Assembly (NCBI GenBank): GCA_015661205.1
Contig: JACVXV010000014.1
Span: forward strand, 1 to 32,304
From: Candidatus Brocadiaceae bacterium
Lineage (GTDB): Bacteria > Planctomycetota > Brocadiia > Brocadiales > Brocadiaceae
Reading direction: 5' to 3'
DNA: 32,304 nt
The notes under the pieces are model-generated. The model was not told the origin of the DNA, made no database searches, and saw nothing but the letters and a program-made list of their open reading frames with translations. How positions within the stretch are numbered: the first letter of the stretch is position 1; each line of letters opens with the position of its first letter. Position numbers and translations under genes: made by a program. This document shows positions 5,267-30,061 of the stretch, in pieces.

Positions 5267-5761
5267 ATGAGCAAAGAATTTAATGGAAATTTAATCGGCA
5301 CTGGTAAGACTTTTGGGATTATTGCCAGCCGGTTTAATAATTTTATTACAAAGCGATTGCTGGATGGCGCCCTTGACTGCCTTGTACGGCATGGCGTTGA
5401 TGATAGCAGTATCGACGTCTTTTGGGTACCTGGCGCATACGAAATTCCGGTGGCTGCCCTGAAAGTGGCGCAAAGCGGCAAATACAGTGCACTTATTTGC
5501 CTTGGCGCCGTTATTCGCGGAGAAACAGCGCACTTTGATTACGTGGCTGGCGAGTCCGCGAAAGGGATCGCCCAGGTAGGGTTATCTACCGGTATTCCAA
5601 CCATTAATGGGGTCATAACAACGGAGACCTTAGAACAGGCCATCAACCGCGCCGGGGCAAAAACGGGAAACAAGGGCGCTGAAGCCGCGTTATCCGCCGT
5701 GGAGATGGTAAATCTTTTTGAGCAAATCCAGGCCGGAGTTAAAACAAAAAACCGAGGTTAG
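5267..5761 (+). CDS. ribH: 6,7-dimethyl-8-ribityllumazine synthase
   Basis: 164 residues, the usual length. It condenses 5-amino-6-ribitylamino-uracil with 3,4-dihydroxybutanone 4-phosphate, the penultimate step of riboflavin synthesis, in the cytosol and usually as a large icosahedral or pentameric shell. Visible family motifs are FNNFIT near the N terminus, [22 protein letters not shown] with the catalytic His, and the C-terminal phosphate-binding GNKGAEAA. An AGAGG ribosome binding site precedes the ATG. The next gene encodes NusB, and ribH-nusB adjacency is a widely conserved bacterial order. The 125 bases between them show no obvious terminator. Confidence 0.97.
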
Positions 5762-5886
5762 CGTATTTATAGTAGTTCCATCCTCTCAGACGCAACCCCC
5801 AGTTGTTACCATTAGATTAACTAAGCCGTTCCATTTTCATACATTATTTTTTTGTCTTTTATTGCTCTTATAAAATCGAATAAACC

Positions 5887-7167
5887 ATGCGTAATAGAAC
5901 GATTGCCCGTGAACTTGCCCTCCAAGCCCTTTATCAACTTGATTTACGAAGCGACTATATGACCGGTGATATTGAAGCATTCTGCAAAGAAAATACCGAT
6001 AAACAGGACATATACCAGTTTGCCATGTCACTTATCCAGGGTTGCCGCTCTCATAAAGAGGAAATCGACGAGAAGATTTCCCGTGTTGCAGAGCATTGGG
6101 ATATGCACCGCATGGCCATTATCGACAAGAATATTTTGCGATTGGGCGTATACGAACTCCAATACCGGGAAGATATTCCTCCAAAGGTCTCCATCAATGA
6201 GGCCATAGACCTTGCAAAAAAATTCAGCACAAAAAATTCGGGTACCTTCGTCAACGGCATTTTGGACAAGATATACACCCAATTTGGCGCTGGGCAACTG
6301 CCGGCAACCGCAGGGGCAGAAAATATTCAAGCCATTCCTGAAATCGATTACGGCAACGCGGACTTACACGTCCATACCAACCTTTCCGACGGAACGATGT
6401 CGCCGGAGGAGGTTGTAGATGAGGCCATCCGGCTGGGCGTTACAACTATTTCCATTACGGACCACGACACCGTTGACGGCGTTATCGCTGCTGCCCGCTA
6501 TGGACAAGGCAAAAATATCAACGTCATTGCCGGCATAGAGCTTTCCGCATATCTCGCCCCCGCTGAAATCCACATATTGGGCTATTTTATTGACGTCAAT
6601 AACCTCTCATTGCAAAATATATTGAAGCAGTCGCACGAAGACCGGCGAAAACGCATTTATGCAATCGTAGATAAACTACACGGGCTTAACGTGAACGTTG
6701 GCGCGGAAGAAATCTTCACCCTCGCGGGAAAGGCGTCTCCCGGCCGTATGCACATTGCCGAAACGATATTGAAACACGGGTATTGCAAAACGATGGCGGA
6801 GGTTTTTTCAAGATACATCGGCGATCACGGACCCGCTTACGTTCCCAAGAAAACGCTTACCCCGCAACAAGCAATTGAATTGATTAAGGACGCCGGAGGC
6901 GCTTCCGCCTTGGCGCATCCCGGACTGACGCAAAGAGATCAAGTCATTGAAGAACTGGTTAAATTCGGCCTCAAGGGGATTGAGGTTTACTATCCTGCGC
7001 ATACCCCCCAGGACGTCAAGAAGTATCTTACGATAGCAAAAAAGCATAACTTGATTGCAACCGGTGGTTCTGATTTTCACGGAGAAAGGAAGGCGGAGAC
7101 GCCCATCGCTTTAGTAACCATTCCGGGCAGTTTAGTTAGTGAGCTTAAAAGGTCCATTTTAACATGA
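5887..7167 (+). CDS. nusB: NusB-PHP fusion: transcription antitermination factor joined to an RNase AM (YciV/TrpH)-like phosphoesterase
   Basis: 426 residues, three times the length of NusB. Residues 1 to ~135 are a complete NusB: RTIARELALQALYQ at the start, AIIDKNILRLGVYEL and a C-terminal GTFVNGILDKI. After a ~22-residue linker, residues ~157-425 form a PHP domain with its metal-binding residues in order: DLHVHT (His161, His163), DHDT (Asp192, His193), GIELS (Glu218), HILGYF, AHPG (His344) and GSDFH (Asp396, His398). Sequence order and spacing resemble E. coli YciV (RNase AM), a 5'-3' exonuclease that matures rRNA 5' ends. NusB works with NusE on boxA of rRNA leaders, so the fusion could couple rRNA antitermination to 5' trimming; that is inference. 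The frame is continuous with no internal stop. ribH is upstream and ftsY starts 14 bases downstream, implying one transcript. Confidence 0.93.
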   Translation: MRNRTIARELALQALYQLDLRSDYMTGDIEAFCKENTDKQDIYQFAMSLIQGCRSHKEEIDEKISRVAEHWDMHRMAIIDKNILRLGVYELQYREDIPPKVSINEAIDLAKKFSTKNSGTFVNGILDKIYTQFGAGQLPATAGAENIQAIPEIDYGNADLHVHTNLSDGTMSPEEVVDEAIRLGVTTISITDHDTVDGVIAAARYGQGKNINVIAGIELSAYLAPAEIHILGYFIDVNNLSLQNILKQSHEDRRKRIYAIVDKLHGLNVNVGAEEIFTLAGKASPGRMHIAETILKHGYCKTMAEVFSRYIGDHGPAYVPKKTLTPQQAIELIKDAGGASALAHPGLTQRDQVIEELVKFGLKGIEVYYPAHTPQDVKKYLTIAKKHNLIATGGSDFHGERKAETPIALVTIPGSLVSELKRSILT

Positions 7168-7181
7168 GGAGAGTGTAATTC

Positions 7182-8612
7182 GTGGAGCAGTTTTCAAATA
7201 AAGACAAAACCCCTGAAAAGAATACCTTACCAAGCCAAAAGCCTGTAAAGCAGAAAAAAGGCTGGTGGCATTGGTTTAAAAACCTTTCGATAGAACCGCG
7301 CAAGATCGTTATTTGGGATGGCGATAAGGTAACGTTGCTCCCCGCTCCGCCAGAGGGTGAAGTTGCTGCGATTGCCGTTGGAAAACCCGCCGTTACCGTG
7401 GAGAAACCGGTAGTCGTTGCGCCAGTGGTGGTTCCAAAACCACCGGTAGTGCCGATTCCACCGGTTGTACCGCCAAAGCCGGTCGTTAAAGAAAAGGTTG
7501 TCGAGGTTCCGAAGCCGCCGGTAGCGCCGATTCCTCCGGTTGTACCGCCAAAGCCAGTCGTTAAAGAAAAGGTCGTGGCGGTTCCAACGCCGCCGGTAGC
7601 GCCGATTCCACCGATTGTACCGCCAAAGCCAGTTGTTGAAGAAAAGGTAGTGGCGGTTCCGAAGCCACCGGTTGCACCAATTCCTCCGGTAGCGCCGCCA
7701 ACCGTTCCGGTTGACCGGCTGAAGATCGGTTTGGAAAAGACACGCGGCCGTTTTTGGTCGCGACTAAAGGGCATTTTTTCCTTTAAAAAAAACATAGACA
7801 AATCGGTTCTCGAAGAACTTGAGGACATACTTATCGGCGCGGATATTGGGGTAAAGCCCGTCCAGAAATTATTACAGGAACTGAACACGGCCTGGGAATC
7901 TAAAGCGATAACGGAAACTACGCAGATTCAGGGTTTTATAAAAGCGAAGTTGAAGGAATATCTCCGCGCCTGGCAGACGGACGTTCAATATGCCCCGGTG
8001 CCACCCACCGTTATCATGGTTGTTGGAGTAAACGGGGCTGGGAAAACGACGTCGATTGCAAAACTTGCCCATCTTTTTATTAAGGAAGGCAAAAAAGTCA
8101 TGGTTGCTGCAAGTGACACCTTCAGGGCCGCCGCAGTTGAACAATTGGAGATTTGGTGTAAACGTATTGGTGCGGAAATCGTGAAGCATCATACGGGTTC
8201 CGACCCAGCGGCGGTTGCTTATGACGCCCTGGAAGCCAGTATCGCAAGGGGATACGACGTGCTGATCGTTGATACGGCCGGACGGTTGCACACCCACGAG
8301 AATCTGATGAACGAACTCGGTAAGATCAAACGGGTTATTGCAAAGAGATTACCTGGCGCGCCTCACGAGGTGTTGATGGTGCTTGATGCAACAACCGGCC
8401 AGAATGCCGTCTCTCAGGCAAAGATGTTTAAGCAGACGGTAGACATTTCGGGCATATTTTTGGCAAAATTGGACGGCACGGCAAAGGGCGGCATTGTGCT
8501 TGGTATGCGCAATGAGATCGATGTCCCGGTAAAATTCGTCGGTCTTGGCGAAAAACCAGAGGACATAGAACGCTTCGACCCCGACACCTTTGTAAACGCC
8601 TTGTTTGAGTAG
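7182..8612 (+). CDS. ftsY: Signal recognition particle receptor FtsY with proline-rich repeat linker
   Basis: 476 residues from a GTG start preceded by GAGGAG. It is the SRP receptor GTPase that docks ribosome-SRP complexes at the inner membrane. Residues ~1-60 are basic and aromatic (KQKKGWWHWFK), a likely membrane-contact segment. Residues ~84-176 are a Pro/Val-rich linker made of nearly four 25-residue units. The NG domain fills ~175-476: G1 GVNGAGKTT (282-290), DTFRAAAVEQLE, G3 DTAGRLHTHENL, G4-region AKLDGTAKGG (Ala replaces the usual Thr before KLD) and a C-terminal GLGEKPEDIERFDPDTF. The acidic A domain of E. coli FtsY is absent, replaced by the Pro-rich linker. It follows the nusB fusion by 14 bases. 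Confidence 0.96.
   Translation: MEQFSNKDKTPEKNTLPSQKPVKQKKGWWHWFKNLSIEPRKIVIWDGDKVTLLPAPPEGEVAAIAVGKPAVTVEKPVVVAPVVVPKPPVVPIPPVVPPKPVVKEKVVEVPKPPVAPIPPVVPPKPVVKEKVVAVPTPPVAPIPPIVPPKPVVEEKVVAVPKPPVAPIPPVAPPTVPVDRLKIGLEKTRGRFWSRLKGIFSFKKNIDKSVLEELEDILIGADIGVKPVQKLLQELNTAWESKAITETTQIQGFIKAKLKEYLRAWQTDVQYAPVPPTVIMVVGVNGAGKTTSIAKLAHLFIKEGKKVMVAASDTFRAAAVEQLEIWCKRIGAEIVKHHTGSDPAAVAYDALEASIARGYDVLIVDTAGRLHTHENLMNELGKIKRVIAKRLPGAPHEVLMVLDATTGQNAVSQAKMFKQTVDISGIFLAKLDGTAKGGIVLGMRNEIDVPVKFVGLGEKPEDIERFDPDTFVNALFE
7431..7708 (+). repeat. 75-bp in-frame tandem repeat inside ftsY
   Basis: Units begin at 7431, 7506, 7581 and 7656; the fourth is partial. Each encodes about VPKPPVAPIPPVVPPKPVV followed by a charged KEKVV segment. 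Copies are very similar at DNA level, suggesting recent expansion or ongoing homogenisation. Copy number may vary between strains. Confidence 0.9.
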
Positions 8613-12717: not shown

Positions 12718-14004
12718 ATGGCAATATTGCAAGTGGCTCTTGATTTTGTTGATCTTCACAGGGCCGTAAAGGTTGCCCGTGAGGCCGTTGAAGGGGGCGC
12801 CGGATGGATTGAAATCGGCACTCCGCTTATTAAGAGCGAGGGTATGAACGCGGTGCGCCACTTCAGGAGTTTATTCCCCGGCGTAACGTTGGTTGCCGAC
12901 ATGAAGACCATGGACGCCGGCCGCACCGAAATGGAAATTGCAGCCAAGGCAGGGGCAAATATTGCCGTTGTCATGGGAAATGCCCCTGATTCAACGATTA
13001 AAGAATGTATACAGGCAGGGAAGAATTACGGTATTAAAATCTGTGTAGATTTTTTGAACGATAGTACGGTTGAAGACCGTGTTTGTGACGTGGAAAAATG
13101 GGGGGCGGATTATGTGGCCGTTCATACGGCCATAGACGACCAGATGCACGGAAGTACTCCCTTTGACACGCTGCGCAGCATCAGCAGTCGGGTGAAAATC
13201 CCCATTGCGGTAGCAGGCGGCATAAATTCTGAAAATGCGGTAGACGCCGTGAATAACGGGGCAAGCATTGTCATTGTCGGCGGCTACATTACTAAAGCTG
13301 CGGATGCAAAGGCTGCGGCGGCGAGCATCAAAAAGGCCATCGAAGAAAACCGGAGGATTGCCACGACCCTGTTTACCCGTGTAAGCAGGGAAGGCATCAG
13401 GGACGCGTTGTTCAGGCTTTCTACAGCAAATATCTCAGATGGTGGTCACCGGGCGGAAGGCATTACGGAGATGCGCCGGATATGTCCTGACGTCAAATTA
13501 GTGGGAATTGCGGTTACCGTTCGGACTTATCCAGGAGATTGGGCAAAACCGGTAGAGGCCATAGACATTGCACAGGAAGGCGACGTAATCGTGATTGACG
13601 CCGGTGGGGTTGGGCCTGCCGTGTGGGGAGAGCTAGCTACCTGCAGCGCATTGCAAAAGAAAATTGCCGGTGTGGTAATAAACGGGGCAATACGGGACGT
13701 TGCCGATATCAGGAAGTTGCAGTTCCCTGCCTTTGCGAAGTTGGTGACTCCGATGGCGGGTGAGCCGAAGGGGTTTGGGGAGATTAATGTGCCGATTTCT
13801 ATTGCCGGGATTGAAATCAATCCCGGTGATTGGATTATAGGCGACGAGGATGGACTGATGGTGATATCCTCCCGCGAGGCTGAGGTACGGGTAAATTATG
13901 GCATGGACTGCCTGGAAAAGGAAAACAGGATTAGGCAGGAAATAGTATCTGAAAAAAGTTCTTTAGGAAAAGTCTTAGATGTGTTAAGATGGGAGAAGGC
14001 ATAA
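12718..14004 (+). CDS. 3-hexulose-6-phosphate synthase / RraA-like fusion
   Basis: 428 residues, two domains. Residues ~1-212 form a TIM barrel of the OMP decarboxylase/HPS family with the DxKxxD motif DMKTMD (61-66), EIGTPLI near the N terminus, and phosphate-binding AVAGGIN and IVIVGGYIT loops; HPS condenses formaldehyde with ribulose 5-phosphate, or runs backwards to supply pentose phosphates. Residues ~222-410 are an RraA-like domain with NISDGGHR, GDVIVIDAGG and GAIRDVADI, the last being the substrate/metal-binding signature of RraA-type aldolases. Such HPS-RraA fusions occur in archaea and some bacteria. No 6-phospho-3-hexuloisomerase lies nearby. A role in reverse ribulose-monophosphate flux for pentose supply is plausible but unproven. 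Confidence 0.88.
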   Translation: MAILQVALDFVDLHRAVKVAREAVEGGAGWIEIGTPLIKSEGMNAVRHFRSLFPGVTLVADMKTMDAGRTEMEIAAKAGANIAVVMGNAPDSTIKECIQAGKNYGIKICVDFLNDSTVEDRVCDVEKWGADYVAVHTAIDDQMHGSTPFDTLRSISSRVKIPIAVAGGINSENAVDAVNNGASIVIVGGYITKAADAKAAAASIKKAIEENRRIATTLFTRVSREGIRDALFRLSTANISDGGHRAEGITEMRRICPDVKLVGIAVTVRTYPGDWAKPVEAIDIAQEGDVIVIDAGGVGPAVWGELATCSALQKKIAGVVINGAIRDVADIRKLQFPAFAKLVTPMAGEPKGFGEINVPISIAGIEINPGDWIIGDEDGLMVISSREAEVRVNYGMDCLEKENRIRQEIVSEKSSLGKVLDVLRWEKA

Positions 14005-14133: not shown

Positions 14134-14634
14134 ATGAAATGCGAATCATGCAACAAAAAACACGCTACGGTACACTTGACGGAAATAACGGGTGCGGTAA
14201 AAAAAGAGCGGCACCTGTGTGAAGATTGCGCCCAGAACGTCAATACCCATCTTGCGAAGATGCCTTCGCCAACCGAGATTCTGGCCAGCCTTATTAATCA
14301 GGTGGCGCCGGAAGTCAGTGAGATGTCAAAAATCGTTTGTCCCGTTTGTGGATTGACCTATTTGGAATTTCGGTCCCACGGACGATTGGGTTGCCCGATG
14401 GACTACACCATCTTTAGGAAAGGTCTGACTCCACTGCTGGAAAAGATGCATGGCGGCACGCAGCACGTAGGAAAGGTGCCTTCCAGGGCCGGAAGGGAAA
14501 TGATCAAGAAGAACGAACTCATGCTTTTGAGAAGTGAGCTAAACAAGGCGGTTGAAAAAGAAGATTATGAGAAGGCCGTTGAATTGAGAGACAAGATTTA
14601 CGAACTTTCGGGTGACGATAATGGTGAAAATTAG
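14134..14634 (+). CDS. mcsA: McsA, zinc-finger activator of the protein-arginine kinase
   Basis: 166 residues. Two zinc-binding regions are visible: CESCNKK...HLCEDCA at residues 3-33 and CPVCGLTYLEF...GRLGCPMDY at about 70-90. A UVR motif sits at the C terminus (about 125-160, LNKAVEKEDYEKAVELRDKI). In Bacillus, McsA activates McsB and, through such motifs, contacts ClpC. The mcsA-mcsB-clpC order is kept here, but CtsR, normally the first gene of the Firmicute operon, is absent from the window. The stop overlaps the start of mcsB by 14 bases. Confidence 0.95.
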   Translation: MKCESCNKKHATVHLTEITGAVKKERHLCEDCAQNVNTHLAKMPSPTEILASLINQVAPEVSEMSKIVCPVCGLTYLEFRSHGRLGCPMDYTIFRKGLTPLLEKMHGGTQHVGKVPSRAGREMIKKNELMLLRSELNKAVEKEDYEKAVELRDKIYELSGDDNGEN

Positions 14635-15676
14635 CGATTTAGCGGACAATACCGGAGAATGGCTGAGGGGAACCGGCTCCGAGTCGGACATTGTAATAAG
14701 CAGCCGGATCCGCCTGGCGCGGAACGTTGCCAGATTCCCATTCCTTTCAAGGGCCAACGTCAAACAAAAGAAGGAACTTGAATTGACCGTGCGGAACAAG
14801 ATCAAGGATGCTGACATTACACCGGACATCTGCTACGTTAATCTGGCCGATATTACCTCGATTGACAGGCTCTTCCTGGTAGAGCGGCACCTTATCAGCC
14901 GTGAACATGCGGGGGGCGAAGGCGAAAGGGGGGTCGCCTTTGGCAAGGAGGAGACGATCAGTCTTATGGTTAATGAAGAGGACCATTTGAGGATTCAGGT
15001 AATACGCTCCGGCTTTGAGTTGCGTGAGGCCTGGAAAACGATTGATGACATTGATAACAAACTGGAAAAAAGGTTGAATTATGCGTACAATTCACGATTT
15101 GGCTACCTGACGGCGTGTCCTACAAACGTAGGCACGGGAATGAGGGCTTCGGTTATGCTGCACTTGCCCGCATTGGGAATGACGCACCATATTGAAAAGG
15201 TGTTCAATGCCGTAGCGAAGCTTGGCCTGGTGGTGAGAGGATTATATGGTGAGGGGACTCAGGTTTCGGGGGATCTGTATCAAATATCGAATCAGTTTAC
15301 CCTCGGCAAATCGGAAATGGAGATTATAGAAATCATAGAAAGCGTGATTCCGCGTATTACCAACTATGAGCGGATGGCGCGAAAGGCGCTGGTTGCTGAA
15401 AATAAAGAGCAATTGGAGGACCGCGTGTGGCGGTCTTATGGCATGTTGAAAGTGGCAAGGATGATTTCTTCCGAAGAGATCATGCATTTGCTGTCTCAGG
15501 TGCGCATGGGAGTCAATTTAGGTATAATTAGCGACGTTGAGATGAAGACATTGAACGAGCTCTTTATCCTCACGCTCCCCGGCCACCTTCAAAAACTAGA
15601 GGGACGGGAACTTTCGTCTGCACAAAGAAATATTATCCGAGCGGCGTACGTAAGAAAACGCCTGGAAAAGATATAA
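14621..15676 (+). CDS. mcsB: McsB, protein-arginine kinase
   Basis: 351 residues from the ATG at 14621. A GTG at 14612 is in frame, but the ATG start gives MVKISDLADNTGEWL, which matches the usual McsB N terminus in length. It phosphorylates arginines on damaged proteins, marking them for ClpC. It shows SESDIVISSRIRLARN, the NEEDHLRIQ loop, the nucleotide-binding and catalytic CPTNVGTG motif and RGLYGEGTQ, all typical of phosphagen-kinase-like McsB. It overlaps mcsA by 14 bases and lies 21 bases before clpC, so the three are almost certainly one operon. Confidence 0.96.
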   Translation: MVKISDLADNTGEWLRGTGSESDIVISSRIRLARNVARFPFLSRANVKQKKELELTVRNKIKDADITPDICYVNLADITSIDRLFLVERHLISREHAGGEGERGVAFGKEETISLMVNEEDHLRIQVIRSGFELREAWKTIDDIDNKLEKRLNYAYNSRFGYLTACPTNVGTGMRASVMLHLPALGMTHHIEKVFNAVAKLGLVVRGLYGEGTQVSGDLYQISNQFTLGKSEMEIIEIIESVIPRITNYERMARKALVAENKEQLEDRVWRSYGMLKVARMISSEEIMHLLSQVRMGVNLGIISDVEMKTLNELFILTLPGHLQKLEGRELSSAQRNIIRAAYVRKRLEKI

Positions 15677-15697
15677 AGTTGAAAGGTAGGTGTATTT

Positions 15698-18178
15698 ATG
15701 TTTGATCGATTTACAGACCGTGCCAGAAAGGTTATGGCCCTTGCACGAGAGGAGGCCAGGCGGTTTAACCACGAATATATTGGAACAGAGCATATTTTGT
15801 TGGGATTAGTGAAGGAAGGCAGCGGCGTTGCGGCAAACGTCCTGCAAAACCTTGATATAGAGATGAAGAAGATACGCCTGGAAGTGGAAAAAATCGTCCA
15901 AAGCGGTTCAGACCTGGTTTCCGTAGGGCAGTTGCCTTTTACCCCACGGGTAAAAAAGGTGCTGGAATACGCGATGGAAGAGGCACGGGCTTTGGGACAT
16001 AACTACATCGGTACGGAACACCTGCTCCTGGGTTTACTCAGAGAGCAGGAAGGCGTTGCAGCCCAGGTGTTGTTGAACCTGGGGGTAAAGCTGGAAGACG
16101 TGCGCGAAGAGGTCATCGGCCTGTTGGGTGCGGAATCCACTCAAGGCGCTGCAAATCCGGAAAAAGACGAAAAGAAGGGGAAGTCGAAGACCCCGGCCCT
16201 GGACGCCTTTGGCCGCGACCTTACGCAACAGGCACGGGACCACGAGCTTGACCCGGTTATCGGACGGCAGGGGGTAATCGAGCGGGTAATTCAGGTGTTA
16301 TGCCGCAGGACGAAGAACAATCCCGTGTTGTTGGGCGAAGCAGGGGTTGGAAAGACGGCCATCGTTGAGGGACTCGCGCAAGCCGTTGTGCAGGGCAATA
16401 TCCCTGAGTTGCTCAGAGACCGAAGAATCGTTGCCCTTGACCTTGCCATGATGGTTGCGGGTACGAAATACCGGGGGCAATTTGAGGAGCGGATTAAGGC
16501 CGTTATGTCCGAGGTAAAACGGGTAAAAAACGTCATCCTCTTTATTGACGAGTTGCACACCCTGGTTGGCGCTGGCGGCGCGGAAGGCGCGATTGACGCG
16601 TCCAACGTTTTAAAACCTGCCTTATCAAGAGGGGAAATCCAGTGTATCGGTGCCACCACCCTTGACGAATACCGAAAATACATCGAAAAAGACGGCGCAC
16701 TTGAAAGGAGATTTCAGACAATCGTTGTCGAACCTCCTACAAAGACCGAGACTGTCGAGATTTTAAAAGGCCTCAAAGACCGATACGAGGCGCACCACAA
16801 GGTGCAAATCACTGATGAAGCATTAGAGGCTGCAACGGAACTGTCAACCCGCTATATAACGGGCAGATTTCTTCCCGACAAGGCAATTGATGTAATTGAT
16901 GAGGCGTGTGCAAGGGTAAGGCTTAAAGCTACCACCCAGCCGCCCGATTTAAGGCACATAGAGGAGGAAATCAATAAACTTGAAAAAGACAAAGATGAAG
17001 CTGTGGCAATCCAGGATTTTGAAAGGGCCGCGCGGTTAAGAGATAAAGCGGATAAACTAAAAAAGAAAAAGGAAACCATTGAAAAAGAGTGGCGTGAAAG
17101 CCGTGCTGAGATTGAAGGCGTAGTGAATGGCGAGGTTGTGGCTGAAGTAGTTTCCAAGATGACGGGCATTCCCATTACGCGTATTGAATCTGCCGAGGCC
17201 AAACGGCTGCTTCGCATGGAAGAGGAATTGCATAAGATGGTAATTAGCCAGGAAGAGGCGACAAAGGCCGTCTCCAAGGCGATACGGCGGTCACGCGCCG
17301 GGCTGAAGAACCCCAACCGCCCGGTGGCTTCGTTTATATTCGTTGGACCGTCCGGTGTGGGTAAGACACATCTTGCTCGCTCGCTGGCAAAGTTTATGTT
17401 TGGAGAAGAGGATGCTTTGATCCAGATTGACATGTCGGAATACATGGAAAAGCACAACATCTCCAGACTCATTGGCGCACCGCCGGGCTACGTAGGTTAT
17501 GAGGAAGGTGGACAACTGACGGAAAAGATACGCCGCCGTCCTTACGCCGTTGTATTGCTTGATGAAATTGAAAAGGCCCATCCTGACGTCTTTAACATGT
17601 TGTTGCAAATCATGGAAGACGGAAAGCTGACGGACAGTTTCGGCCGCCACGTGGATTTCCGGAACGTGGTTATCATTATGACATCGAACATCGGGGCGGA
17701 CGTCATAAAAAACCAGGCGCACCTGGGTTTTAAAAAGTCGTCGGACGAACATTCCTACGATATCATGAAAGAACAGTTAAAGAAAGAGGTGGAAAAACAC
17801 TTCCGCCCTGAATTCCTTAACCGTGTGGATAATATTATCGTCTTTAAACCTCTGGCTAAAACCGACCTGAAGAAGATTATTGAAATCGAGTTGGAAACGG
17901 TTAAGAAGAGGATGGAAAACTATAACGTCAGCATCACGGTGACGGACGAGGCCTTGGATTTCTTAATAGATAAAGGATACAACCAAAATTTCGGCGCTCG
18001 TCCGCTCAGAAGGGCAATAGAAACTTATTTGGAAGACCCTATTTCGGAAGAAATACTCCAGGGCAAGTACGAAGGGAAAAAGCAGATTAAGGCAAAGGTG
18101 CTGGATGATAAGCTGGTATTTGAAGAGATCATTGATACCCCTGAGCCGCTATTGGCAAATGCCGGCAGCAGTCTTTAG
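15698..18178 (+). CDS. clpC: ClpC, AAA+ unfoldase of the ClpCP protease
   Basis: 826 residues. Two N-terminal Clp_N repeats (~1-145) bind substrates and, in Bacillus, phosphoarginine. D1 has Walker A GEAGVGKT (213-220); a coiled M-region follows, with a UVR-like motif ([17 protein letters not shown], about 430-450), as in ClpC. D2 has Walker A GPSGVGKT (550-557), the GYVGYEEGG pore loop, and an LGF tripeptide near residue 677, in the place where Clp ATPases dock to ClpP. It would unfold arginine-phosphorylated proteins for ClpP; clpP is not in the window. Expression is likely with mcsA and mcsB. No CtsR box or CIRCE element was recognised upstream of mcsA. A strong terminator follows at 18203-18234. 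Confidence 0.97.
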
Positions 18179-19502: not shown

Positions 19503-19993
19503 GAAAAGAGAAAAATTAGTGAAAACGAAGATACACGGTGTCTTCTTCTACCGGTTCTCAATCAGGTTTTCGAGGATTCTTTAATTTTGTTTTAGCCGTC
19601 GAATATTTTGAAGAATTTCAAAAAATGAGCCATTCTCACAAAGAGTACCGTAGTCAAACGTGTATTTCGCCAATTAGCCAAAGCGTTACCTACCGAAAAA
19701 CAGTCACATCCTCAACCGTATGAAAATGTATTACCACAATCCACTCATGTTTGTACAAATTCCTCATCCCCTAAAAATTCAAATAAATGGTAGGCAATGC
19801 CTACCCTACCTGACCGGATGGGTTGTGCCACTCCGCAATATCAATTGCCGGGACGTAAAAAGGGAATTTTAACCGAATGATACTGAAAGTTAAGCAATGC
19901 GCGGTAATGGCGGTTTGTGAGTGGGGAAATCTCTTGACAGAACGAAGGTGAAGGAATAGAATCTTGCCGTCCTTCAAAACAGGGAGAAAGAAA
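19503..19993. other. 491-base region, no recognised gene
   Basis: Several short frames (for example VKRVFRQLAKALPTEKQSHP near 19653-19712) look like fragments of unknown proteins shifted between frames, but none is recognisable. A palindrome GGTAGGCAATGCCTACC lies at 19789-19805. It probably holds debris upstream of the polysaccharide locus. Confidence 0.5.
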
Positions 19994-20998
19994 TTGGCAA
20001 CTGTAAGCGTACTGATAGTAACTTATAATATACAAGAAACGATCGTGGAATGCCTTGAGTCCTTAAATGATCAAAAATTTAAGGATATTGAAGCTATTTT
20101 GGTCGACAATAATTCAAAAGATAATACGAAAGCGCTTGTCGAATCATTTAAAAGCAAGGCATCTTACCCGCTCAAAACAATATATTTAGATACCAACACA
20201 GGCTTTTGCCTTGGAAATAATACCGCATTGAAACATGCCGGCGGGAAATATATTGCACTGTTGAACCCGGACGCCAGGGCAGATAGCCGTTGGCTTGAGG
20301 AGTTAGTAGCGGCTATGGACAGCAATAGTGCGGTGGGGGTTTGTGCGTCAAAGGTGCTTACCTGGGACTCTAGTGCTATCGACAGCGCCGGAGACATGAT
20401 GTTATCAACCTTTCGATGCTTTAAACGTGAGGCTGCAAATCCCGATAGGTACCATCAGCCTGAACTCGTTTTTGGCGCTTGTGCGGCAGGAGCTTTATAT
20501 AGAAAAGAAATGATAGAACAAATAGGTTTCTTTGACGAAGATTTTTTCCTTCAGTGTGAGGATACGGATTTAAATTTCAGATCACAACTTGCCGGTTGGA
20601 AGGTTACTTACGTACCCACAGCCTTAATATACCATAAGGTCAGTAACTCGATAGGCAAGACGTCTGACGTAGGGGTTTACTATAGTCAGCGAAATATGGA
20701 ATTCGTCAGGATAAAGAACGTTCCGGTTTCGATATTAATTATGTATACTCCGCACATTGTGTTAGGTTTTATAATCGATTTTGTATACTTTGGCTTAATA
20801 CTCTCAAAGTGGAGGTTGTTCATCAAGGCAAAGATTGACGCCCTAAAGATGCTCTCTACGATGCTCAAGAAGAGGAAACAGATAGCAAAAGAGATCAAAA
20901 AGGTTGACAATGCCTATATAAGGTCGTTGATAAACCCGTTATTCAATGATAGACATTTTATTAAGTTGAAATTGAAAAGAATTGTGACAAAGAAATAG
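19994..20998 (+). CDS. Glycosyltransferase family 2 (rhamnosyltransferase-like)
   Basis: 334 residues from TTG 19994, which has GGGAG 8 bases upstream and gives LATVSVLIVTYN (initiating Leu codon read as Met). A TTG at 19964 with AAGGA would add 10 residues and cannot be excluded. It has the GT-A fold: VSVLIVTYN, DNNSKDNT, LLNPDARADSRWLEEL (the donor/metal region, NPD rather than DxD), and GACAAGALYRKEMIEQIGFF followed by QCEDTDLNFR, the acceptor-side ED motif. This pattern is that of WbbL/RfbF-like O-antigen rhamnosyltransferases. Two hydrophobic stretches near 245-275 suggest membrane attachment. First gene of the polysaccharide locus; the permease gene follows by 40 bases. Confidence 0.9.
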   Translation: MATVSVLIVTYNIQETIVECLESLNDQKFKDIEAILVDNNSKDNTKALVESFKSKASYPLKTIYLDTNTGFCLGNNTALKHAGGKYIALLNPDARADSRWLEELVAAMDSNSAVGVCASKVLTWDSSAIDSAGDMMLSTFRCFKREAANPDRYHQPELVFGACAAGALYRKEMIEQIGFFDEDFFLQCEDTDLNFRSQLAGWKVTYVPTALIYHKVSNSIGKTSDVGVYYSQRNMEFVRIKNVPVSILIMYTPHIVLGFIIDFVYFGLILSKWRLFIKAKIDALKMLSTMLKKRKQIAKEIKKVDNAYIRSLINPLFNDRHFIKLKLKRIVTKK

Positions 20999-21038
20999 TA
21001 GAGTTTTTTCAGAATATAATTATCATGAAGCTTCCCAA

Positions 21039-21869
21039 ATGGATGAGCAAGAACATACGCTACTAATAGAGGCCGGACGTACTGAACTGCATTACTGGAA
21101 AGACCTGTGGCGTTTTCGCGAGTTATTTTACTTCCTGTCGTGGCGTGATATTTTAGTACGGTACAAGCAGACGGTCATTGGCATTGCCTGGAGCGTAATC
21201 AGGCCGCTGATGACCATGGTCGTATTTACGGTTGTGTTTGGAAAACTGGCCAAACTTCCGTCTGAAGGGGCGCCGTATCCGATGCTGGTCTATGTCGCCA
21301 TGCTTCCTTGGCAGTTTTTTGCAAATTCGTTGACTGAAAGCAGCAATTCGTTGATTACGAATGCAAATATGCTGTCAAAGGTCTATTTCCCACGCATTAT
21401 TATGCCGGCCAGTGCGGTAATTGTCAGTTTGGTGGATTTTCTGATTTCTTTTTTTATTCTTGTTGTCTTGATGATTTGGTACCAATTTATACCCGATTGG
21501 CGGATAGTTACTTTGCCGTTTTTTCTGTTCCTTGCTTTGATCGCATCCCTAGGCTTCGGATTCTGGCTTGCTGCACTGAATGTAAAATATCGTGATTTCA
21601 GGTACATCGTGCCATTTATCGTGCAGTTCGGCCTTTACATTTCACCGGTAGGTTTTAGCACAAATGTAGTACCGGAGAAGTGGAGGCTCTTATATTCATT
21701 GAATCCGATGGTGGGGGTCATTGATGGTTTTAGATGGGCAATATTAGGTGGAGACGTCAAAATCTACTGGCAAGGTTTTTTTCTTTCAACAGGTCTTGTT
21801 TTTATATTATTTATAGCTGGTGTGTCATATTTCAGAAAAACAGAACGGTACTTTGCTGATATAATTTAA
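21039..21869 (+). CDS. wzm: ABC-2 type polysaccharide export permease (Wzm), first copy
   Basis: 276 residues. Six hydrophobic segments follow an amphipathic N-terminal region (YFLSWRDILVRYKQTVIGIA), the Wzm/TagG/KpsM signature. SVIRPLMTMVVFTVVFG, a PWQFFANSL loop, and NVKYRDFRYIVPF and ISPVGFS are typical of ABC-2 polysaccharide permeases. It would form a dimeric channel for an undecaprenyl-linked glycan. The matching ATPase starts 221 bases downstream, an unusually large gap inside such a pair. Confidence 0.93.
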   Translation: MDEQEHTLLIEAGRTELHYWKDLWRFRELFYFLSWRDILVRYKQTVIGIAWSVIRPLMTMVVFTVVFGKLAKLPSEGAPYPMLVYVAMLPWQFFANSLTESSNSLITNANMLSKVYFPRIIMPASAVIVSLVDFLISFFILVVLMIWYQFIPDWRIVTLPFFLFLALIASLGFGFWLAALNVKYRDFRYIVPFIVQFGLYISPVGFSTNVVPEKWRLLYSLNPMVGVIDGFRWAILGGDVKIYWQGFFLSTGLVFILFIAGVSYFRKTERYFADII

Positions 21870-22090
21870 AGATGAACTAGCTCTCATAGTGCATGAAATT
21901 AAACATACGGGGATAGAACTATTAAAAGAGTGATTAGTTAATGGTGAAAAGTGAAAGTTGTGGAGAAGACGGAAACAGATAATAAAACTGATGCAATTGC
22001 CGCAAAACTGGACTGGCAGGTCTAATTAAATATGCCAAACAGAAGGCAACCGAGAAGTGAGTTCTTTCACTATTTACCGTTCACGGATTT
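21870..22090. repeat. 221-base gap with inverted repeat between wzm and wzt
   Basis: AATGGTGAAAAGTGAAAG (about 21940-21957) is largely complementary to CTTTCACTATTTACCGTTCAC (about 22064-22084, 21 bases with mismatches). The ~105 bases inside carry no recognisable protein. It looks like a palindromic element inserted between the permease and ATPase genes. Confidence 0.45.
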
Positions 22091-23392
22091 ATGAATACAG
22101 TCATTAAGGTTGAAAATTTAGGCAAAAAATATTTTCTCAGGCATCAAAAAGAAGAGCGTTATTCAGCATTGCGTGATGTTATTACTAATAAGCTAAAATC
22201 TCTTGGTAAAAGAGTTTTTAATCACGAGAGTCACGAACCAACAATAGGGAATGCTTCAGTTGAAGAATTTTGGGCGCTTAAAGATGTATCTTTTGAGATT
22301 AAACAAGGGGATAGAGTAGGGATTATTGGCCGCAACGGCGCCGGGAAATCGACGCTCCTTAAGATATTAAGCCGAATTACTGAACCGACAACCGGGCGTG
22401 TTGCCATAAAAGGCAGGGTCGCAAGTCTTTTGGAAGTGGGGACGGGTTTTCATCCAGAGCTTACGGGGCGAGAAAATATTTTCCTTAATGGGGCAATATT
22501 AGGCATGCGTAGAGCGGAGATAATCCGGAAGTTTGATGAGATGGTTGCTTTTGCTGAAGTAGAGAAATTTCTTGATACTCCAGTCAAAAGATACTCTTCC
22601 GGCATGTATGTACGCCTAGCATTTGCCGTAGCCGCCCATCTAGAGCCTGAGATACTGATCATTGACGAGGTGCTTGCGGTTGGAGACGCGCAGTTCCAAA
22701 AAAAATGCCTCGGAAAAATGGAAGACGTGGCAAGAGGTGGGAGAACGGTGTTGTTTGTTAGTCACAATATGAACGCGATTGAACAGCTTTGCACAAGTGC
22801 GTTACTCTTGGAAAGAGGGGTTGTAAAAAAATACGATGCCGACGTTTGCTCTGTAATTAAAGAATATCTGTTTGGATCAGACGGTGAAACCAAAAATGAA
22901 TGGGTGAATCCCGGTAAGATTTTAGAAAATCCTTGGTTCAAACCCCTAAAATTATACTTAACAAATGAGCATGGTGGTAAGCATGATGGTGTTTTCAAAA
23001 ATGACACTGAAATTTGGCTTCAGGTAGAAGGGGAAATTAAGCAAACGGAACCCTCCCTTCAGATTGGATATGCAATATATTCCGAAGAGGGCAATCTATT
23101 GTATTGGTCATGCCACACCGACGTAATAGAAGAAGAATGGCCGAAATTAAATAATGGTTATTATGTATTCAGGAGCCAAATTCCCAAAAGATGGTTAAAT
23201 GAGGGAATGTATAGAATAGAGCTTATTGTTGCCCTTTACTTCAAACAATGGCTGAGTGAACCCGGTAAGAACGCCCCTTCTGTTTATTTGACCATTCAAG
23301 GGGGACTAAGCGACTCATCGTATTGGATGATAAGAAGGCCGGGTCTTTTAGCGCCGGTGCTGAGATGGGACACAAAGAACAAAACTACCTAA
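22091..23392 (+). CDS. wzt: Polysaccharide export ABC ATPase with C-terminal Wzt domain, first copy
   Basis: 433 residues. The ATPase half has Walker A GRNGAGKST (80-88), the signature YSSGMYVRLAFA (from 168), Walker B ILIIDE (Asp192) and the switch His in VSHN. Residues ~265-430 form a beta-rich Wzt_C-type domain, which in O9a-type systems binds the modified non-reducing end of the O-antigen and makes export depend on chain termination. That fits the two methyltransferase genes directly downstream. It pairs with the permease at 21039. Confidence 0.93.
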   Translation: MNTVIKVENLGKKYFLRHQKEERYSALRDVITNKLKSLGKRVFNHESHEPTIGNASVEEFWALKDVSFEIKQGDRVGIIGRNGAGKSTLLKILSRITEPTTGRVAIKGRVASLLEVGTGFHPELTGRENIFLNGAILGMRRAEIIRKFDEMVAFAEVEKFLDTPVKRYSSGMYVRLAFAVAAHLEPEILIIDEVLAVGDAQFQKKCLGKMEDVARGGRTVLFVSHNMNAIEQLCTSALLLERGVVKKYDADVCSVIKEYLFGSDGETKNEWVNPGKILENPWFKPLKLYLTNEHGGKHDGVFKNDTEIWLQVEGEIKQTEPSLQIGYAIYSEEGNLLYWSCHTDVIEEEWPKLNNGYYVFRSQIPKRWLNEGMYRIELIVALYFKQWLSEPGKNAPSVYLTIQGGLSDSSYWMIRRPGLLAPVLRWDTKNKTT

Positions 23393-23404
23393 AGACAGCG
23401 TTGT

Positions 23405-24118
23405 ATGCGAGGCTTAGGAGGATATCCGGTGTTTTTCCCTGAACGTATAAAAAATATTAAATCGACCGATTGTGTGTTGGAAGTAGGTCCGGGAGGTACG
23501 CCCCATCCAAGGTCTGATGTGTTTTTAGATTTGATTCATACAAACGATGAAAACGCGGCATTTCAACGGGGCAATGCGGACCAGTTGGTTACCAATAAGA
23601 AAACCGTTTACTATGAAGGGGGAAGGTTCCCTTTCTCTGATCTGGAATTTGATTATGTAATTTGTTCTCATGTTTTAGAACATGTTGAAGACGTGGAGTA
23701 TTTCTTGTCGGAACTTTTCAGGGTTGCTTCAAAAGGTTATATAGAGTTTCCGACTATCTACTATGAGTATTTATATAACTTTTCCGTTCATTTGAATTTG
23801 CTTAAGATAAAGAATAAAACTCTTTTTTATTTGGAAAAAGCTGCAACTCCATTATCGGTTTTCGGTACAGTTCAGAATTTGTTTTTACAATCGTTGAGTA
23901 AAGGATATACAAAACTCGTAGACGATTTGAAACAGGTAATGTTCGAGGGATTTGAATGGCTTGAGCCTTTTCCATGTAAGAAGGCATTATGTATACAGGA
24001 ATTGACCTTTGATGACATACTGCTTCCAATTTGCGAAACGTCAAAGTGTGGTGGACGTGTGCGTGAATATATTGTGCAAGTGATTAATCTGTTTTTCAAA
24101 AGGAAAAGTAAGCGGTGA
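23405..24118 (+). CDS. SAM-dependent methyltransferase (class I)
   Basis: 237 residues. SAM-binding motif I is VLEVGPGG at about residues 25-32, and FDYVICSHVLEHVEDVEYFL carries the motif IV/V region of Methyltransf_11 proteins, followed by GYIEFP. It probably methylates a sugar or modifies the glycan, and in context could supply the terminal modification recognised by the Wzt C-terminal domain. It starts 12 bases after wzt. The next gene overlaps by 4 bases (GTGA), so they are translationally coupled. Confidence 0.85.
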   Translation: MRGLGGYPVFFPERIKNIKSTDCVLEVGPGGTPHPRSDVFLDLIHTNDENAAFQRGNADQLVTNKKTVYYEGGRFPFSDLEFDYVICSHVLEHVEDVEYFLSELFRVASKGYIEFPTIYYEYLYNFSVHLNLLKIKNKTLFYLEKAATPLSVFGTVQNLFLQSLSKGYTKLVDDLKQVMFEGFEWLEPFPCKKALCIQELTFDDILLPICETSKCGGRVREYIVQVINLFFKRKSKR

Positions 24119-24768
24119 AGCTTCATCTCGGCTGTGGCCAGCGGTATCTGGACGGTTATGTAAATATCGATTTTCCTCTTTCAGCCCATTCCGTTCAGGG
24201 AACTAGTGTGGCAGACCTCCACGCCGACATTTTATCCTTGAGATACGCGCCCGAAACGATAGAAGAGGTGCGCCTTCACCATGTTTTCGAGCATTTTTCA
24301 CGGCCTGTTGCCTGCGCTTTATTGGCAATCTGGTTCTCATGGCTGAAGCCTGGTGGGATTATTCATTTAGAAGTCCCTGATTTTCAAAAAACTGCGCGTG
24401 TCATGTTAAGTTTCTTTACTTCGTTTAAGAAGCGTGCCGTGGCGGAAAGGCATCTATTCGGATCACATGAAGCATTTTGGGCGATTCATGGTGAGGGGTA
24501 CACTCCAGGGATGTTGAAAAAGATGATTACCGGGTATGGTTTCAGGGTGACGGATATTCGGAGAAACTCCTGGCTTAGCACCTATAATTTTGAACTGTTT
24601 GCTGAAAAGGTTTCTATCGAAATTGTAAAAAAAAATTTTGAAGATATTACCGCAAAATATTTGAAAAATTACCTGTTAGATGATAGCGGATCAGAGTCAA
24701 GACTGTTAAATATCTGGATGGAGGTTTATAAAGGCCAGATCGAAAAAGGTTGGATTCAAAATGGGTAA
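24115..24768 (+). CDS. SAM-dependent methyltransferase, glycan-associated type
   Basis: 217 residues from GTG. LHLGCGQRYLDGYVNIDF at the N terminus is the motif I of the O-antigen-cluster methyltransferase group; VRLHHVFEHFSRP and WLKPGGIIHLEVPDF are the later motifs. It is close in type to proteins found in many O-antigen clusters. It overlaps the previous gene by 4 bases and the next by 8, so it is part of a tightly packed operon. Acceptor unknown. Confidence 0.85.
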   Translation: MKLHLGCGQRYLDGYVNIDFPLSAHSVQGTSVADLHADILSLRYAPETIEEVRLHHVFEHFSRPVACALLAIWFSWLKPGGIIHLEVPDFQKTARVMLSFFTSFKKRAVAERHLFGSHEAFWAIHGEGYTPGMLKKMITGYGFRVTDIRRNSWLSTYNFELFAEKVSIEIVKKNFEDITAKYLKNYLLDDSGSESRLLNIWMEVYKGQIEKGWIQNG

Positions 24769-25582
24769 TGTTTCTGTTATCATCCCTACATGGAATAGGG
24801 AAGATACCGTCGGAAAAGCCATTTACAGTGCTCTTTCTCAAACAGTACCACCAATGGAAGTACTGGTGTGCGATGACGGCTCAACAGACAAGACCATGGA
24901 ACTGGTACGATCGATCAATGATCCACGGGTTCGATGGATTCAAGGTATTCGGGGAGGCAGACCTGCCATTCCGAGAAACCGCGGTATCAAGGAAAGCCAG
25001 GGCGAATGGTTGGCTTTTTTAGACAGCGATGATAGGTGGCTACCGGAAAAGCTTGAGAAGCAATTGCAACTGGCTGAAAAATCGAACTGTTTGGCCGTCT
25101 GCTCAAATGCCGGTCGCTTTATTCCTGATAAAGGGATGGTAGGCAATCTGCTGCTGTGGAATAACGACCAAGTCAATTTTGACGATCTGTTGTATGTTAA
25201 TCAGGTTATTTGCAGCTCAGCCATTATTCACAAATCGCTCTTTGCAACGGTTGGCGGTTTTCCGGAGGATGTGCGGTTTACCGCTATTGAGGACTATTCC
25301 CTCTGGCTAAGGGTTGCAACTCGAACAGATTTTGCCTTTGTCGGTGAACCGCTACTTATTTATTGTGATGACCCGGCGGCTAGCTTAAGAAGCAAAGACG
25401 CGGATGTCTTCGAACAGCGCAGAATCGTATTTGATAATTTTAAAGAGTGGGGGAAAGAACATAACATCCCTGGTGTTTATTTGCGAAAAGTGCGAATGCG
25501 GCGTGTGGTTGATTTACTGACTCTTCCTAAAGCGATGCTCCATGGCCTTATTGTGCATTTGAAGAAATATTTTTTAAAATGA
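24761..25582 (+). CDS. Glycosyltransferase family 2
   Basis: 273 residues, GT-A fold. VSVIIPTWNREDTVGKAI, CDDGSTDKTMELV and LAFLDSDDRWLPEKL (the DxD-type motif) are all in their usual order. EDYSLWLRVA near residue 185 is the acceptor-side motif. It adds a sugar from a nucleotide donor on the cytoplasmic face. It overlaps its upstream neighbour by 8 bases and its downstream neighbour by 4, so it lies within one operon. Confidence 0.92.
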   Translation: MGNVSVIIPTWNREDTVGKAIYSALSQTVPPMEVLVCDDGSTDKTMELVRSINDPRVRWIQGIRGGRPAIPRNRGIKESQGEWLAFLDSDDRWLPEKLEKQLQLAEKSNCLAVCSNAGRFIPDKGMVGNLLLWNNDQVNFDDLLYVNQVICSSAIIHKSLFATVGGFPEDVRFTAIEDYSLWLRVATRTDFAFVGEPLLIYCDDPAASLRSKDADVFEQRRIVFDNFKEWGKEHNIPGVYLRKVRMRRVVDLLTLPKAMLHGLIVHLKKYFLK

Positions 25583-26760
25583 AGATACTCCACACGGTTG
25601 AATTTTATCACCCTTCGGTTGGTGGGATGCAAGAGGTGGTTAAGCAACTATCGGAGCGTCTGGTGCGTCACGGCCATGATGTGACCGTGTCTACGGCACA
25701 CTTGCCGGATCGCAGGGACACGGTTATTAACGGAGTTAAAATCGAAGGGTTTGCGGTAAAAGGTAAACTTGCGATCGGAATTGACGGGGAGCTTGAGCGA
25801 TATCAACAATTTTTGCTTAACGGTGAATTCGATATTGTAACAAACTTTGCCGCCCAGCAATGGGCAACCGATGGAATGATTACCATCCTTGATAAGATTA
25901 GAGGTAAAAAAGTCTTTGTCCCCACGGGCTTTTCAGGGTTTTATCTGCCGGAATATAAAAAATATTTCGAATCAATGAGACTCTGGATGATGCAGTACGA
26001 TATGAACGTGTTTCTTTCGGAAGATTACCGTGACATAAATTTCGCACGCGGAAGTGGCGTAAAAAAAATTACCGTTATTCCGAACGGCGCGGCAGAGGAT
26101 GAGTTTTTGCCCGATATGAAGATTGACATTCGTGCGTTGCTGGGCATACCGCAGGATCACTTTTTGATCTTACACGTCGGTTCCCACACGGGAGTTAAGG
26201 GACACGCTGAGGCGATAAGGATATTCGGCAAAGCTCGTATACGCGAGGCAACGTTTCTGATCGTTGCAAACAGTTTTTGGAGGGGGTGTACAAACGCCTG
26301 CAAGCTTAAGGAGTTGGTTTACAATGGCTGGTTCAAGCTCAAATCAGGAGAAAAGAGGTTGATAATAACCTCTCTTCCCCGGACGGAAACAATCGCCGCA
26401 TATAAGGCAGCGGATATGTTTTTGTTTTCTTCCAATATCGAATGTTCGCCTTTAGTGCTTTTTGAGTGTATGGCTTCAAAAACCCCTTTTTTGACGACAG
26501 ACGTTGGAAATTCGGCGGAAATTATCGAATGGTCTCATGCCGGGATGTTGTTACCCACCGTAAAAGACGCAAAAGGGTTTTCGGTTGCGGATGTTAGAGG
26601 TTCCGCGAAAATGGTTGAGGACATGTACAATGATAGTGCCTTAAGGGAAAAAATGCGGGAAAGTGGTTTTAGGGTGTGGCAGGAACGTTTTACCTGGGAT
26701 AAAATAACCAGGACTTATGAAGCACTGTATCATAAGCTAGTGTTTGATGAAAAATGTTGA
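25579..26760 (+). CDS. Glycosyltransferase family 4
   Basis: 393 residues, GT-B fold. HPSVGGMQEVVKQLSERL is the N-terminal acceptor loop, VIPNGAAEDEF marks the interdomain hinge, LHVGSHTGVKGHAEAI begins the donor domain, and the E-x7-E motif ECSPLVLFE has Glu288 and Glu296. It overlaps the GT2 gene by 4 bases (ATGA), so the two are translationally coupled. Donor and linkage are not predictable. Confidence 0.92.
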   Translation: MKILHTVEFYHPSVGGMQEVVKQLSERLVRHGHDVTVSTAHLPDRRDTVINGVKIEGFAVKGKLAIGIDGELERYQQFLLNGEFDIVTNFAAQQWATDGMITILDKIRGKKVFVPTGFSGFYLPEYKKYFESMRLWMMQYDMNVFLSEDYRDINFARGSGVKKITVIPNGAAEDEFLPDMKIDIRALLGIPQDHFLILHVGSHTGVKGHAEAIRIFGKARIREATFLIVANSFWRGCTNACKLKELVYNGWFKLKSGEKRLIITSLPRTETIAAYKAADMFLFSSNIECSPLVLFECMASKTPFLTTDVGNSAEIIEWSHAGMLLPTVKDAKGFSVADVRGSAKMVEDMYNDSALREKMRESGFRVWQERFTWDKITRTYEALYHKLVFDEKC

Positions 26761-26866
26761 GACTGCGATCTGTTATGGACAGAATAAACATAAGATTATC
26801 GCTCCGAATGTGGGGTTGCCCGGTATGACACTGCTACGGTAGGGGAATAATGGTTAATTACAAAAC

Positions 26867-27757
26867 ATGATAATCGTTAAACTCATGGGTGGGCTGGGCA
26901 ACCAGATGTTTCAGTATGCGGCTGCGCGGAGGCTTGCCTATATCCTTAATACACCCGTAAAACTGGATGTAAGCTGGTTCAATAATATTGAGAATATTGA
27001 TACCTCCAGGAGATATGAACTCCATGTATTTAATATAAAAGAAGATTTTGCCTTACCCGAAGAAGTGGAGGACTTTAAAAGGATTCAAAAGGGCGCCTTC
27101 TTCCGGGCGTTTAAAAAATTGACGAACGCAGTATCCGCTTCCACCCATTCAACCTGGATACGTGAAAGGCACTTTCATTTCGACCCGGCTATTCTCAAAC
27201 TGCCGGATAATGTGTATCTCGAAGGTTACTGGCAGAGTGAAAAGTATTTTATTGACGTTGAAGGGATTATACGAAAAGAGTTTACTGTCAAAACGGAACC
27301 CGGTGAAACGAATCGGCAAATTGCAGAGATTATTAAGAATACAGAATCAGTTTCCGTTCATGTAAGAAGGGGAGACTATGTTACAAACACAACCACCAGC
27401 CAGTACCACGGAAGCTGTTCAATAGATTATTACCGTGAAGCGGTCGGGAAGGTTGTATCACAAGTACAGCACCCCTATATTTTTGTTTTTTCCGATGAGC
27501 CTGATTGGGTAAGGGAAAACCTTACATTGCCGTTTCCGGTAACGTACGTTGGCCACAACGGTGCTGATAAGGCTTTTGAAGATATGCGTCTCATTAGCTT
27601 GTGCAAACACCACATTATTGCGAACAGTTCCTTTAGCTGGTGGGGCGCTTGGCTATGCGCAAATCCGGATAAAACTGTATTCGCGCCTAAGAAATGGTTC
27701 AACAAGGCGGGATTGAATACGGCGGATTTGTTGCCCGGCTCCTGGCTTAAAATTTAA
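26867..27757 (+). CDS. Alpha-1,2-fucosyltransferase (GT11)
   Basis: 296 residues, typical of GT11. MGGLGNQMFQYAAARRLA at the N terminus is the GT11 hallmark. HVRRGDYV at 165-172 is the HxRRxD GDP-fucose-binding motif, and IANSSFSWWGAWL is the conserved C-terminal motif. It would transfer L-fucose from GDP-fucose to the 2-position of galactose in the glycan. No GDP-fucose synthesis genes (gmd, fcl) are in the window, so they must lie elsewhere. The 106-base gap from the GT4 gene holds no clear feature. Confidence 0.95.
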   Translation: MIIVKLMGGLGNQMFQYAAARRLAYILNTPVKLDVSWFNNIENIDTSRRYELHVFNIKEDFALPEEVEDFKRIQKGAFFRAFKKLTNAVSASTHSTWIRERHFHFDPAILKLPDNVYLEGYWQSEKYFIDVEGIIRKEFTVKTEPGETNRQIAEIIKNTESVSVHVRRGDYVTNTTTSQYHGSCSIDYYREAVGKVVSQVQHPYIFVFSDEPDWVRENLTLPFPVTYVGHNGADKAFEDMRLISLCKHHIIANSSFSWWGAWLCANPDKTVFAPKKWFNKAGLNTADLLPGSWLKI

Positions 27758-27773
27758 TATAAGTGTATCGGTT

Positions 27774-28607: not shown

Positions 28608-28924
28608 TAAGTGAATGATATGGAATGGTGTGAATAAGTTTTCACCGCGGGCGCTAAATACTTTACGTCTGTGCCAGAAGTTCCTGCTTCATTTCTCTCG
28701 TTCCCAAGCTCCAGCTTGGGAATGCGCCTGTGCCTGAAGCTCCTGCTTCGTTTTTGGGGAAGATTTTTTTCTGACTCAAAGCAGTAAGGTAGGACAAGCG
28801 TTCCCGCTTGTCATTATAATGTCAGGCGAGGACGCCTGACCTACCATTAGTGCAATCCCGTTCCCAAGCTGGAGCTTGGGAACGAGGTGGAATTTTTTAA
28901 AAGCAAAAGCGTTGTGACATTGTG
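28608..28924. repeat. 317-base gap with families A and D repeats
   Basis: Family A palindromes lie at 28699-28724 and 28859-28884 in opposite orientation, the first followed by the GAAGCTCCTGCTTC hairpin. Between them, 28788-28845 is a unit bounded by GGTAGG and CCTACC that contains two hairpins, GACAAGCGTTCCCGCTTGTC and TCAGGCGAGGACGCCTGA. No gene. A new transcript for the next genes could start here, but no clear promoter was seen. Confidence 0.75.
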
Positions 28925-30004: not shown

Positions 30005-30061
30005 ATCGGTTCGTTTTTTTACATAGAATGTGAAACGTTCCCTGCGGGAAAAACACAGCGT

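Follow-up and report, generated by a model that had tools for sequence, protein, structure and literature searches.

In Escherichia coli, RNase AM trims the last 5' nucleotides of 5S, 16S, and 23S rRNA (PMC8406224, PMC9848016). Separately, the NusB-containing antitermination complex has been tied to how rRNA folds and matures (PMC10250234, PMC6614801), and the contribution of this complex to rRNA maturation in E. coli is described as unclear (PMC10250234). In the model for this complex, the leader-trailer helix forms with NusB still bound to boxA close to the RNA exit channel (PMC10250234, PMC6614801). Here, we analyzed a locus at which a NusB domain and a PHP phosphoesterase domain are encoded by a single gene. 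In a literature search limited to open-access papers, we found no prior description of a NusB-PHP (or NusB-COG0613) fusion.

The window, i.e., the whole stretch of 32,304 nucleotides of Brocadiaceae DNA that was analyzed, contains at positions 5887-7167 on the forward strand a single open frame of 426 codons that extends from an ATG at 5887 to a TGA at 7165-7167. As proposed in the initial annotation, both domains are encoded in this frame without an intervening stop codon. Based on PF01029, TIGR01951, and Foldseek, residues 1-134 (5887..6288, forward strand) form a complete NusB domain; based on PF02811, NCBIfam profiles, and Foldseek, residues 156-426 (6352..7164, forward strand) form a complete PHP phosphoesterase domain with an insertion, of the RNase AM/nucleotide bisphosphatase type. 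Both domains exceed the curated Pfam cut-offs (PF01029, residues 6-130, 127 bits; PF02811, from residue 159, above the gathering score), and the limits suggested earlier, 1-135 for NusB and 157-425 for PHP, fit these profile boundaries. The AlphaFold2 model comprises two well-folded domains (mean pLDDT, 85.8; pTM, 0.63). Between them, pLDDT values and length comparison delimit a linker of ~20 residues (135-155; 6289..6351, forward strand), of which residues 136-151 have a pLDDT of <50 and are modeled as disordered. The linkers of fused relatives range from 11 to 68 aa and are not conserved in sequence; because the length varies, a tether fits better than a rigid interface. The linker lacks an in-frame ATG, GTG, or TTG, the closest start codons being at residues 126 and 171; translation of PHP as a separate product from within the linker is therefore unlikely.

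The gene is flanked upstream by ribH for lumazine synthase (5267..5761, forward strand; TIGR00114) and downstream by ftsY (7182..8612, forward strand; TIGR00064), and the order ribH-nusB-PHP-ftsY is conserved in the class. At positions 5869-5887 of the forward strand, TATAAAAT ends 10 nt upstream of the nusB ATG, so that the transcript might be leaderless; a promoter scan gave no site in this interval upstream of nusB. Further along the forward strand, positions 12718-14004 encode a hexulose-6-phosphate synthase fused to an RraA-like domain of the RNase E regulator family (NF005442, 539.5 bits versus a cut-off of 593). Positions 14134-18178 of the same strand encode in tandem a UVR-motif protein, an ATP:guanido phosphotransferase (McsB-like), and a ClpC-type ATPase, a row that resembles the McsA-McsB-ClpC protein-arginine phosphorylation cluster of Bacillus. 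Positions 19964-30829 hold a surface polysaccharide export cluster with glycosyltransferases, ABC-2 transporter genes, and a methyltransferase.

The NusB half scores 142.3 bits against TIGR01951 (positions 2-130 of 131), well above the equivalog cut-off of 88.35, and is the sole NusB match in the genome (3.9 Mb, 292 contigs, 96.7% complete). RsmB, another protein with a NusB domain, was set aside, as its matches are frames of ~465 aa below the TIGR01951 cut-off and represent a different gene. In Foldseek searches against the PDB, the NusB half matched numerous structures of NusB, among them that of the complex with NusE and boxA (3r2c; TM, 0.88 by target). The fold and many conserved positions fit a protein that binds S10 (NusE) and boxA RNA, and we infer that the NusB half does so.

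The PHP half has as its top Foldseek match RNase AM of Vibrio cholerae (9etk; E, 2.8e-21; TM, 0.85 by target), followed by Bad1165, Cv1693, and then E. coli RNase AM. We aligned it to E. coli RNase AM using the residue map in the structure paper (PMC9410882). All nine ligands of the trinuclear metal site are present, in agreement with the initial annotation: H161, H163, D168, H193, E218, H229, H344, D396, and H398 (codons within 6367..7080, forward strand) align to H13, H15, D20, H45, E72, H83, H198, D255, and H257, respectively, and are invariant in 91 of 91 aligned PHP sequences. The wording of the motifs given there was approximate: GSDFH is present, while the window reads MAEVFSRYI and ALAHPG rather than MADVFxxYL and AVLAHPG. 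In the 5'-phosphate pocket, R253, R256, R287, and F307 (codons within 6643..6807, forward strand) align to R107, R110, R141, and F161 of E. coli RNase AM; the three arginines are invariant among the 91 sequences, and the stacking residue is Phe or, rarely, Tyr. Because ligands and pocket are conserved, the PHP half is very likely an active metal phosphoesterase that recognizes a 5'-phosphate. By contrast, Arg201 of E. coli RNase AM, which contacts a sulfate at the metal site (PMC9410882), corresponds to L347 in the fusion and to variable residues elsewhere; R350, three residues further on, could substitute for it.

The initial description of the PHP half as RNase AM-like thus held for fold, ligands, and pocket but not for specificity. 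The half scores 181 bits against RNaseRnm (NF047791; residues 158-399) and 180 bits against NF041577 for 3',5'-nucleoside bisphosphate phosphatase, and other PHP members lean to NF041577. Because the two profiles score equally, both far under their equivalog cut-offs (375 and 400, respectively), and Arg201 is not conserved, the term is not specific, and sequence alone cannot tell RNase AM from a 3',5'-bisphosphate (pAp) phosphatase. We classify the protein as NusB joined to a PHP phosphoesterase of the RNase AM/nucleotide bisphosphatase superfamily that probably works like RNase AM. We also note that in another genome (G077; L099, 1507-3324, reverse strand), an RNase AM-like PHP domain ends a 606-codon frame, in which codons 1-337 lack any Pfam match.

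The fusion is genuine and widespread in the class. There, 45 genomes were read individually with both domain profiles, and each has the two domains in a single frame; four of them are single-contig assemblies (G009, G010, G012, and G024). A NusB match above the cut-off is present in 68 of 75 genomes of the class, and 63 of these 68 have it in frames of 424-527 aa; 18 further genomes were counted as consistent with a fusion by frame length only. The architecture is thus far from being absent in related genomes. The window protein shares 47-74% identity with 14 further full-length fusions. The full-length relatives at 69-75% identity belong to Candidatus Brocadia and other Brocadiaceae, which places the window in the anammox group. 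Five genomes of the class have unfused genes (G036 and G039 of family f5, G062 and G063 of f6, and G064 of f7). PHP lies directly 3' of nusB in four of them, while the two genes are on different contigs in G039. Because some members of the class keep NusB and PHP separate, the tether is not indispensable. In the rest of the Planctomycetota, NusB frames are mostly short and PHP, where checked, lies on another contig. On two contigs (L143 of G039 and L154 of G112), PHP is followed by ftsY without nusB, and ribH-nusB lies on another contig; the position of PHP next to ftsY may be independent of nusB.

The sole distant full-length match was to an Omnitrophota contig (L037), in which nusB (147 aa) and PHP (274 aa) are separate, overlapping genes in the order ribBA-ribH-nusB-PHP-ribD-ribE. 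In a survey of 88 Omnitrophota genomes, 36 of the 50 PHP genes examined immediately followed nusB in the same orientation, most of them overlapping it or ≤20 nt away, and 14 were elsewhere. A true fusion in this phylum was rejected, as each of five fused-looking matches has an in-frame stop between the genes. In a PHP tree, nusB-linked genes are mostly separate from unlinked ones, with weak deep branches. Because the downstream genes differ between the two phyla (ftsY in the class of the window and ribD-ribE in Omnitrophota), nusB-PHP is the shared constant pair.

As to how the fusion arose, we propose that overlapping neighbors were joined by loss of one stop codon or a small frame change. 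The trees require three changes between the fused and unfused states, and a single clade of fused genes was not rejected (AU p, 0.50 and 0.70). Because the unfused f5 genes nest within fused Brocadiales in the concatenated tree, fission in f5 is possible.

The genomes that carry the gene pair also share a set of RNases. In 14 genomes whose nusB and PHP are fused or adjacent, no RNase J scored above the cut-off, while control genomes have it, and all 14 have RNase E/G. E. coli uses RNases E and G, and the RNase set of the carriers would accordingly resemble the setting in which RNase AM acts in E. coli. We also read 12 rRNA operons, i.e., ten copies from seven Brocadiaceae genomes and two from Omnitrophota. 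All 12 have boxA in the 16S-23S spacer, 11 with the exact consensus (chance, about 0.01-0.06 each). In the 16S leader, boxA has no more than one mismatch in 7 of the 12 operons, and four others carry it at the same position with two mismatches. In Brocadiaceae, the leader boxA lies about 115-132 nt upstream of 16S and is followed by a conserved GCGTGCGAG. These leaders (L108-L121) have in common GAAGTC...GCGTGCGAG ~14 nt 3' of boxA, at the position of boxC. No 16S gene was found in the source assembly, and boxA was seen in the operons of its relatives only.

The fusion suggests that rRNA transcription is physically coupled to 5' processing. Specifically, we give an even chance to the protein being a 5'-phosphate exonuclease tethered via NusB to nascent pre-rRNA. 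In this scenario, the NusB half would bind S10 (NusE) as well as the boxA copies of the 16S leader and the 16S-23S spacer, and the flexible tether would carry a PHP enzyme of the Mn type that shortens 5'-monophosphate ends nucleotide by nucleotide. Once RNase III or RNase E/G has cut the nascent pre-rRNA at a site 3' of boxA, 5'-monophosphate ends would arise close to the PHP domain, and the latter, already nearby, would trim the new end, thereby taking the role of RNase AM in bacteria without RNase J. NusE/boxA binding, exonuclease activity, rRNA as the substrate, and recruitment are each what we infer for the protein. The wider version, in which the antitermination complex carries its own 5'-processing nuclease, so that boxA-bound NusB positions a 5'-3' exonuclease for cotranscriptional trimming that replaces RNase J, is more tentative, and we hold it to be somewhat less than an even prospect. 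The coupling gains support because nusB and PHP are adjacent in a second phylum, because RNase J is absent and RNase E/G present, and because relatives have boxA.

The strongest rival, which we nevertheless consider unlikely, is that the PHP half does housekeeping work on small substrates, as a pAp phosphatase or nano-RNase, and that the fusion is a near-neutral merger of two overlapping operon genes without functional coupling to NusB. A merger of overlapping operon neighbors can indeed be neutral. The NF041577 scores, which equal or exceed those of RNaseRnm in the window protein and other members, favor this rival, and the 5'-phosphate pocket serves RNase AM as well as bisphosphatase-type substrates and so suits both (PMC9410882). 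Moreover, PF00459 proteins (SuhB or CysQ type), and hence CysQ, were not found in the nusB-PHP carriers G066, G425, and G397, comprising one f9 and two Omnitrophota genomes, whereas all 14 controls have such a protein. However, CysQ is above the cut-off in G012, where the genes are fused, and in G036, where they are adjacent, so that these genomes have another enzyme for pAp. A neutral merger also leaves unexplained why nusB and PHP are adjacent in two phyla with different downstream genes.

Two further roles are possible but less likely. The PHP half could mainly have a structural function within the rRNA antitermination complex, with catalysis secondary, as for E. coli SuhB, an enzyme with the inositol-monophosphatase fold that joins the NusB complex (PMC4807359, PMC6614801). 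The lack of a PF00459/SuhB-type protein in one f9 and two Omnitrophota genomes with nusB-PHP would fit such a role. We nevertheless regard this role as improbable: the catalytic site is invariant in every aligned member, Brocadiaceae including the source genome also have a SuhB-like protein, and the linker is variable and modeled as disordered. Slightly more doubtful still is the removal of FAD caps from RNA, with the location near riboflavin genes reflecting a flavin link. E. coli RNase AM has deFADding activity (PMC9410882), ribH precedes nusB, and the Omnitrophota pair lies within a ribBA-ribH-nusB-PHP-ribD-ribE row. Yet, ribH-nusB adjacency occurs without PHP in E. coli and L155, PHP is followed by ftsY and not by riboflavin genes in the class of the window, and PHP can pair with ftsY away from ribH-nusB (L143 and L154). 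Finally, the chance of an assembly or sequencing artefact or a split gene is negligible: the source genome is a draft in 292 contigs, but the joined frame in the 45 genomes, including the four single-contig assemblies, rules this out.

If the reading of the fusion as a tethered exonuclease is correct, then an enzyme for rRNA end maturation is directly and physically linked to the factor by which RNA polymerase on rRNA genes is marked. The fusion also suggests a way in which rRNA 5' ends may be completed in bacteria that lack RNase J. With a natural fusion and the same gene pair adjacent in another phylum, the question becomes testable using one purified protein.

Compared to described systems, the NusB half is like NusB (TIGR01951; 3r2c) in being a complete domain above the equivalog cut-off with a closely similar fold, in being the sole NusB of its genome, and in the ribH-nusB gene order; it differs in bearing a C-terminal enzyme domain, whereas the chains in the NusB structures found have lengths of 139-156 aa. 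The PHP half shares with RNase AM (Rnm, YciV) of E. coli and V. cholerae (7ug9 and 9etk) the PHP fold with an insertion, the nine ligands, and the three pocket arginines with the stacking Phe. Unlike RNase AM, it lacks Arg201, scores far below the equivalog cut-off, and is joined to NusB, while E. coli rnm adjoins trpL and yciO and not nusB. The 3',5'-nucleotide bisphosphatase Cv1693 of Chromobacterium violaceum (2yb1; NF041577) is similar to it in fold, site, and profile score (180 bits), but the Arg after the HPG motif that Cv1693 has in common with RNase AM is Leu in the fusion. In the way it would work, the fusion has its parallel in SuhB of the E. coli antitermination complex, in that a metal-dependent protein with a phosphatase fold is joined to NusB function; SuhB, however, is of an unrelated family and is a separate subunit rather than part of a fusion.
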